Shown in pieces: positions 38,431-39,114 of a DNA stretch of 64,000 nucleotides (position 1 is its first letter; each line of letters starts with the position of its first letter). Origin of the DNA: Nostocoides sp. Soil756. GTDB taxonomy: Bacteria > Actinomycetota > Actinomycetes > Actinomycetales > Dermatophilaceae. The notes beneath the pieces were generated by a model. That model searched no databases. It was given only the letters and a program-made list of their open reading frames with translations, and was not told the DNA's origin. The stretch covers positions 258,924 to 322,923 of the forward strand of contig NZ_LMSE01000002.1 of the NCBI RefSeq assembly GCF_001428065.1. Direction: 5' to 3'. Made by a program: the position numbers and the translations under genes.

Positions 38431-38476
38431 GTCAACGTTCTCTTGACATTCCACGACCTGTCAATGCATCCTTGAC
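38431..38476. promoter_or_regulatory. Two copies of an inverted repeat GTCAA-N7-TTGAC before the toxin-antitoxin-like pair
   Basis: The first site is at 38431-38447 and the second at 38460-38476. Both have perfect 5-bp arms, identical 7-bp spacing and centres 29 bp apart, roughly three helical turns. The second ends 8 bp before the first start codon. This is the layout expected for cooperative autorepression of a toxin-antitoxin operon. Confidence 0.65.
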
Positions 38477-38484
38477 GTGTTGAG

Positions 38485-38715
38485 GTGACGGCCTCGGCAC
38501 TCAAGCACGGCATCGACGATGCCGACATCCAGCACGTGTGGACCAACGCCATCCGGCTCGTCGAATACGACGACGCGGGTGAGGAACGACTCTTGGCGAT
38601 CGGACCTGACCGGCACGGTCGGATGCTCGAGCTCGTCGCGGTCCCGGTCAGTGAGCCGACCCGGATCGTCCCTGCCGACCGACTTCGGCCGACGTTCTAC
38701 GACTACCTGAGATGA
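38485..38715 (+). CDS. Small toxin-like protein of a predicted toxin-antitoxin pair
   Basis: A 76-residue protein starting at a GTG. It reads TASALKHGIDDADIQHVWTN, then IRLVEYDDAGEERLLAIGPD and ends RIVPADRLRPTFYDYLR. The HGI..ADI.HaW opening, the central GPDRHGRMLELVAV strand and the end resemble short actinobacterial proteins annotated as toxins, of a BrnT/DUF4258-like RelE fold. Actual toxicity is inferred. It is followed 10 bp later by a small helix-turn-helix protein and preceded by duplicated operators, which supports a two-gene module. Confidence 0.6.
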   Translation: MTASALKHGIDDADIQHVWTNAIRLVEYDDAGEERLLAIGPDRHGRMLELVAVPVSEPTRIVPADRLRPTFYDYLR

Positions 38716-38725
38716 GGTGACAACC

Positions 38726-38968
38726 ATGACCAAGCTCAAGGCGGGCCACGACCACACCGGCCTCGACCAGCTCGACGTCGCCACGCACCCAGCCCGTGAC
38801 GCCGCGCACTTCCGACGCATCCTTGCGGCGCGGCAGACACTTGCCGCGGCAGAACAGGAACTGAACGACGCGGTACGGGCGGCGCGTGAGGCCGGAGACT
38901 CCTGGACGATCATCGGCGCCGCGATGGACACCAGTCGGCAAGCCGCACAGCAGCGCTTCGGCAGTTGA
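38726..38968 (+). CDS. Small helix-turn-helix antitoxin-like protein
   Basis: An 80-residue, largely helical and charged protein. The C-terminal block DSWTIIGAAMDTSRQAAQQRF is a compact helix-turn-helix of a type common in actinobacteria (W..IG..M..SRQAA..RF). A GAGGTG ribosome site lies 6-7 bp before the ATG at 38726. A GTG three codons upstream is the alternative. It is the second gene of the pair, as in the toxin-first arrangement of brnTA-like systems, and could bind the duplicated GTCAA-N7-TTGAC sites. The antitoxin role is inferred. Confidence 0.6.
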   Translation: MTKLKAGHDHTGLDQLDVATHPARDAAHFRRILAARQTLAAAEQELNDAVRAAREAGDSWTIIGAAMDTSRQAAQQRFGS

Positions 38969-39072: not shown

Positions 39073-39114
39073 AGTTCGGGTGGCACCCAGCGATTGCCGG
39101 GTGCCACCCGAACT
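39073..39114. terminator. Long perfect hairpin between the toxin-antitoxin pair and galK
   Basis: Arms AGTTCGGGTGGCACCC (39073-39088) and GGGTGCCACCCGAACT (39099-39114) pair perfectly over 16 bp with a 10-nt loop. An outer CGCAG/CTGCG pair extends it. It sits between convergent genes and is a good candidate for a bidirectional terminator, though it lacks a T-run. The rest of the 217-bp gap has no gene. Confidence 0.65.

Follow-up and report, generated by a model that had tools for sequence, protein, structure and literature searches.

Gene pair and operators at the locus

In the 64-kb stretch of DNA from Nostocoides sp. Soil756 that was analysed (hereafter the window; all coordinates are positions in it), two small genes lie behind two palindromes. 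To judge from the homology of both products, these genes form a chromosomal type II toxin-antitoxin operon of the RelS-RelI family, a further member of an already described kind. It is considered highly probable that this operon, relSI, is repressed by its RelI through the two palindromes and that the toxicity of this copy is reduced. The features of the locus are as follows.

38431-38447, no strand: distal operator GTCAACGTTCTCTTGAC, GTCAA-N7-TTGAC; the right half contributes to the putative -35
38443-38448, + strand: putative -35 element TTGACA, read from the sequence
38460-38476, no strand: proximal operator GTCAATGCATCCTTGAC, GTCAA-N7-TTGAC, with the putative -10 inside
38467-38472, + strand: putative -10 element CATCCT, 18 nucleotides (nt) behind the -35; TAnnnT in most relatives
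38479-38481, + strand: GTT where the relS start codon (GTG or ATG) of relatives stands, by comparison with them
38485-38715, + strand: relS-like toxin gene, 76 amino acids from GTG; matches PDB 9SDC chain C and Pfam BrnT_toxin
38714-38720, + strand: relI Shine-Dalgarno sequence GAGGTGA, overlapping the toxin stop codon
38726-38968, + strand: relI-like antitoxin gene, 80 amino acids from ATG; matches PDB 9SDC chain A (RelI)
38936-38959, + strand: codons of the predicted recognition helix, RelI residues 71-78; Q75 (38948-38950) covaries with operator base 3

The toxin gene comes first and the antitoxin gene directly behind it, with 10 nt from the stop codon, which ends at 38715, to the ATG at 38726. 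The listing of open reading frames also contained an alternative relI opening, GTG at 38717, which gives 83 amino acids.

Two GTCAA-N7-TTGAC repeats, 29 base pairs (bp) apart, had been reported in the original prediction, and they were confirmed at 38431-38447 and 38460-38476. The exact palindrome pattern occurred twice in the window against 0.00 expected (100 shuffles), and in the whole genome (3,470,999 bases) it was found only at these two places. The -35 and -10 elements of relSI were assigned by eye and by comparison with relatives; a generic promoter scan requiring at least 9 of 12 matches reported no promoter. With this assignment, the two palindromes are placed over the putative -35 and -10, which is the arrangement known from ClpC2. 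It has been reported that ClpC2 represses itself via CGTCAAC-n5-GTTGACG, which it bound in gel shifts, and that in many organisms this operator is doubled over the -35 and -10, with a leaderless transcript suggested (PMC10030653).

Relation to RelS-RelI

The toxin matched chain C of PDB 9SDC over residues 2-76 (E 3.8e-21), and the antitoxin matched chain A, which is RelI, over residues 13-79 (E 5.4e-16); a RelI profile matched 9SDC with E 6.9e-34. This structure is that of RelS-RelI, Rv2663-Rv2664 of Mycobacterium tuberculosis, described in 2026, where RelS is an RNase of the BrnT/RelE fold and RelI a non-BrnA antitoxin (PMC13284704). According to the available text of that paper, RelS of M. 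tuberculosis is toxic and is neutralised by RelI, which covers the active site; the target of RelS is the anti-Shine-Dalgarno region of 16S rRNA, which it cuts between C1520 and U1521 (PMC13284704). M. tuberculosis RelE1 and MazF11 likewise cut 16S rRNA at its anti-Shine-Dalgarno end (PMC13284704, PMC12274833), but their cut, between C1517 and A1518, lies 3 nt upstream of that made by RelS (PMC13284704).

In both the window and M. tuberculosis the toxin gene comes first, the two proteins are homologous and their sizes are similar (78 and 85 amino acids in M. tuberculosis). The two loci differ in that tandem operators are present here, whereas no inverted repeats are reported there in the text available, and in that the window toxin lacks both an equivalent of H64 and the start codon of its relatives.

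The predicted RelI model was an all-helical helix-turn-helix (HTH) protein with helices at residues 27-55, 60-66 and 71-78 and a block-mean predicted local distance difference test (pLDDT) value of at least 94 from residue 31. The compact HTH that had been proposed from the motif W..IG..M..SRQAA..RF could be located at residues 60-78 of the second protein, where the model has helices. The proposal of a toxin-antitoxin-like pair in toxin-first order, with duplicated operators that the second protein probably reads, was upheld in kind; it is supported by the homology to RelS and RelI and by the covariation described below. The statement that no named system with this combination was known held in part: RelS-RelI has the same proteins (PMC13284704), so a nameless system was rejected, and the operators are absent from the available text of the RelS-RelI paper.

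The antitoxin had no match among the antitoxin models of Pfam, NCBIfam and PADLOC, and the NCBIfam search of the pair gave no match. PADLOC likewise returned no match, by which a catalogued phage-defence gene was rejected. In PHROGs, only generic matches were obtained, to a toxin and to an HTH protein.

Operators in related loci

A minimum of 60 bits left 95 of the 127 non-redundant toxin loci, and 92 of these, the window included, had a RelI-like partner; when grouped at 95 percent similarity of RelI, the 92 relSI loci fall into about 83 groups. A site was scored when at least 8 of 10 letters matched, with C or A allowed at base 3. Both sites were found in 55 loci, the distal site only in 10, the proximal site only in 15 and neither in 12, so that a counterpart of the distal operator was present in 65 of the 92 loci and one of the proximal operator in 70. 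At random anchors in the same loci, both sites were found in 1 of 15,795 cases; as the motif came from these same loci, the count is a measure of enrichment and not an independent discovery test. The spacing of the operators in relatives was 26-30 bp, mostly 28. Chance palindromes were rejected by the shuffles, the genome-wide count and the random-anchor comparison.

Covariation of an operator base with a RelI residue

By their proximal sites, the loci were divided into 36 C-type (GTCAA/TTGAC), 28 A-type (GTAAA/TTTAC) and 6 mixed loci, with 22 unscorable. All 28 A-type loci had F or Y at residue x of the recognition-helix motif [RK]Q-A-A-x-Q-R-F, which is Q75 in the window, compared with 3 of the 36 C-type loci. 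The remaining C-type loci carried Q (25), H (7) or S (1), and the six mixed proximal sites accompanied F or Y. After thinning at about 95 percent RelI identity, the residue was aromatic in 24 of 24 A-type versus 3 of 32 C-type loci.

Of all columns compared, 76 from RelI and 76 from RelS, the Q75 column shared the most mutual information with operator class (0.77, followed by 0.55). Conversely, when 75 promoter columns were scanned across 69 loci, the dyad-related bases 3 and 15 ranked at the top (0.73 and 0.58, followed by 0.16). Where the residue was aromatic, G was nevertheless retained at base 15 of the distal site in 28 of 30, which would fit a second role of that half as the -35. In the best tree, which covered 59 loci, the operator class changed 9 times and the residue 10 times, and both together took 11 steps; no opposite change was found in 200 random sets of independent pairs.

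The rule was fixed beforehand and then scored on a further 30 loci (L202-L231), of which 8 repeated earlier toxins and 22 were new. These gave 11 predictions and 7 scorable proximal sites, and the rule agreed in 7 of 7, although L202 and L204 look like near copies. The unscored new loci were L205, whose GTAAA...TTTAC site is shorter by one base, together with L210, L211 and L225. Among 15 weaker HTH matches, 10 with Q had two C-type sites, 2 with Q had none and 2 with F had mixed A and C sites. The RelI of M. tuberculosis has F at the reading residue, as have those of M. gastri and M. simulans, which have A-type sites.

In the mycobacterial relSI loci L114, L119 and L140, Q at the reading residue was found together with repeats of the GCAAG/CTTGAC type at the usual places. 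In more distant BrnT-like loci (L143-L170), the toxin is immediately preceded by palindromes of other kinds, for example TTCGTAnTACGA and ACAAGnnnnCTTGT. In L218 and L228, the RelI relative has R as its reading residue (QAARQRF) and lies behind GACAA...TTGTC sites, possibly a third operator class. A different operon with two GTCAA-N7-TTGAC sites and an ATG within a few bases was found in L232-L234, L236-L239, L241, L244 and L245; it contains a short first open reading frame, by eye a small membrane protein, and behind it a longer frame that encodes a RelI-like recognition helix.

Proposed mechanism

RelI, probably as a dimer, would bind both palindromes by its C-terminal HTH, at one site over the -35 and at the other over the -10. 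This binding would repress the relSI operon, and the comparison of many loci indicates that RelI most likely autorepresses its operon. By analogy with the tested family member, free RelS would cut the anti-Shine-Dalgarno end of 16S rRNA, whereupon translation would stop, and RelI would block RelS with its N-terminal part laid over the active site.

State of the toxin

In the window toxin, K7 and H8, corresponding to K9 and H10 of RelS, are kept, P63 stands for H64, T70 for K71 and T2 for R4. For M. tuberculosis RelS, a severe effect on toxicity has been described for loss of K9, H10 and H64, including H64A, and a slight reduction for R4A and K71A (PMC13284704). Among 82 aligned homologues, the H64 position was H in 78 and P in the window and in L028; the two others are in genes with frameshifted-looking ends. 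The R4 and K71 positions are variable in the family (R in 23 of 82, K in 52 of 82), and therefore the substitutions there weigh little.

The two frames of the original prediction, 76 and 80 amino acids, are indeed open, whereas the GTG start of the former is probably not ancestral, as relatives start two codons earlier. With P63 for H64 and GTT for the start codon, the window toxin is probably attenuated, with weak or no toxicity. The antitoxin gene, the ribosome-binding site of relI and both operators look intact. Because the window toxin is without a residue needed for toxicity, a growth inhibition assay with this copy may be negative even though the family is a real toxin-antitoxin system.

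It is a realistic possibility, somewhat short of probable, that the locus is a degenerate remnant in which the toxin is dead and the antitoxin is either a leftover or a neutraliser of incoming relS genes. The three substitutions and the GTT would fit such decay, and there are relatives with a broken or missing relS and a kept relI, such as L016. However, both frames are without stops, the toxin and the antitoxin are about equally similar to their nearest relatives (75-81 percent), the operators and the Shine-Dalgarno sequence are intact, and two of the three substituted positions vary widely in the family. In L016, relI and two operator-like sites are kept beside a tRNA-Thr gene, with a short toxin remnant between them.

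Reader of the operators

Several observations weigh against the interpretation of the locus as a RelS-RelI operon repressed by RelI. The available text of the RelS-RelI paper gives no evidence of DNA binding by RelI, states that no inverted repeats were found in the 1000 bp upstream of M. tuberculosis relS, and notes that in 9SDC the HTH of RelI contacts RelS, which might not permit DNA binding (PMC13284704). Neither operator site was found in 12 of the 92 loci; among these 12 are loci whose toxin is truncated, one with a misplaced start (L021) and mycobacterial ones in which the half-sites read GCAAG. Three C-type loci carry an aromatic residue, L246, among the 15 weaker HTH matches, combines F with a C-type site, and L211 has an aromatic residue with a C-type distal site, contrary to the rule. 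Only 2 of the 9 class changes were forced by well-supported branches; with such weak tree support, shared descent may contribute to the covariation. In ClpC2, contact with DNA has been assigned to the C-terminal domain, since R185A/R189A bound less well (PMC10030653), and RelI is without this domain. Finally, a Foldseek search of both predicted models against the PDB gave no significant match (best E 0.24 and 2.7); the third match of the toxin model was a chain of a Salmonella toxin-antitoxin complex (E 0.76).

A rival reading is that the pair is RelS-RelI but its operators are read by another regulator, ClpC2-like or some other HTH repressor, with RelI acting only as a neutraliser. In its favour are the engagement of the RelI HTH with RelS in the crystal, the lack of DNA-binding evidence in the available text (PMC13284704), and the use of the same operator sequence by ClpC2 (PMC10030653) and by other HTH operons in relatives. 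However, the operator base follows the recognition-helix residue of RelI itself, both across loci and in the 7 of 7 scorable new ones. In addition, the palindrome occurs nowhere else in the genome of the window, in which the single RelI-type HTH match at E 0.001 was RelI itself. A foreign reader is considered improbable.

The comparison with ClpC2 bears on reading by RelI in another way. RelI resembles the HTH region of ClpC2 (PMC13284704), and the RelI profile matched residues 35-72 of 8ADA, which comprises residues 4-72 of ClpC2, its dimerising N-terminal domain (E 0.0021). The two proteins thus have in common the operator sequence, doubled in many organisms in the case of ClpC2, and a region that in ClpC2 is N-terminal; they differ in that ClpC2, a Clp-related protein that binds cyclomarin, has a C-terminal domain missing from RelI. 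ClpC2 variants with the C-terminal domain only or deficient in dimerisation bound less well, which points to a need for the dimer (PMC10030653). Since the operator and the HTH region are common to RelI and ClpC2, the HTH region may be the reader in both, and this analogy suggests that it is the HTH region, rather than the C-terminal domain, that reads the ClpC2 operator.

A BrnT-BrnA system with an unusual antitoxin is very hard to credit: the window toxin barely exceeds the cut-off of the Pfam BrnT_toxin model (34.6 versus 34.5 bits), all 16 members of toxin set A1 match that model at E 0.01, and brnTA, known from Brucella abortus, has a toxin of the same fold family and is likewise toxin first (PMC13284704), but BrnA is a ribbon-helix-helix antitoxin (PMC11980606) whereas the antitoxin here is an HTH protein by its predicted model, no BrnA match was obtained for it or for the 43 members of antitoxin set A2, and both proteins match RelS-RelI far better, so that this assignment was rejected for an antitoxin of the wrong type.

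According to a literature search, with preprints and most subscription papers outside its scope, the relSI operators and the residue rule are new, whereas the RelS-RelI pair itself is known. In the available text of the RelS-RelI paper, the only one found on this system, there is no sign of transcriptional control, and its characterisation is called for (PMC13284704). If repression by RelI is correct, antitoxins of the RelI type would repress their own operons, and a single residue would suffice to predict the operator. Under the rule, A-type sites (GTAAA...) are expected wherever RelI carries F or Y, and this includes the RelI of M. tuberculosis (F).

Translation signals

Among the 70 loci that have a proximal site, relS starts 7-8 nt behind the putative -10 in 54 and 5-9 nt behind it in 60, and no start was found in 7. 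The outliers were the window (13 nt), L135 (15 nt) and L086 (20 nt). A Shine-Dalgarno match of at least 7 nt preceded relI in 43 of the 70 loci and none was seen in 10, in some of them perhaps because the wrong start had been chosen. Ahead of relS, 20 of 70 loci had a match of 5-6 nt, mostly AAAGG inside the operator. Given the start 7-8 nt behind the -10, the relS mRNA should be leaderless; toxin-antitoxin transcripts of M. tuberculosis have been reported to be predominantly leaderless (PMC8485053).

It may be speculated that RelSI is a self-reinforcing switch, in which removal of the anti-Shine-Dalgarno sequence spares the leaderless relS and shuts off relI, so that the system, once triggered, would run to completion. 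The window copy would then be an exception, having lost the leaderless toxin start. This idea is considered unlikely. An earlier claim that Escherichia coli MazF makes ribosomes selective for leaderless mRNA was not supported by follow-up work, according to the available text (PMC12274833), and because this precedent is unsupported, the switch stays a speculation.

Distribution and genomic context

In all distribution counts the genome of the window is included. RelS matches were found in 47 of 186 genomes of the family (E 0.001) and in 32 of 396 genomes drawn across the phylum (E 1e-6); at E 1e-14, the class-wide sample gave 12 of 394 genomes and the order-wide sample 15 of 396. A scan of genome contigs gave 90 relatives, of which 80 named loci were kept, with Terrabacter, Knoellia, Nocardia, Rhodococcus, Gordonia and Mycobacterium among the genera. 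Plasmids and phages also carried relatives: 6 plasmid records of Rhodococcus and 4 phage records, three for Gordonia and one for Mycobacterium.

At the locus, relSI is flanked by an exonuclease III-like gene and a galactokinase gene. The interval between these two genes was compared in 6 congeners, out of 10 other genomes with an exonuclease match. Both flanks were conserved and relSI was absent from the interval in 6 of 6; the best matches there covered 14 residues (E 0.38) and, in the other case, 25 residues (E 0.053). Because these congeners keep both flanks without relSI, the operon is accessory here.

Between relI and the convergent galactokinase gene, a perfect 16-bp inverted repeat with a 10-nt loop was observed (39073-39088 and 39099-39114). 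The 56 nt around it had a predicted fold of -47.8 kcal/mol (z-score -10.7).
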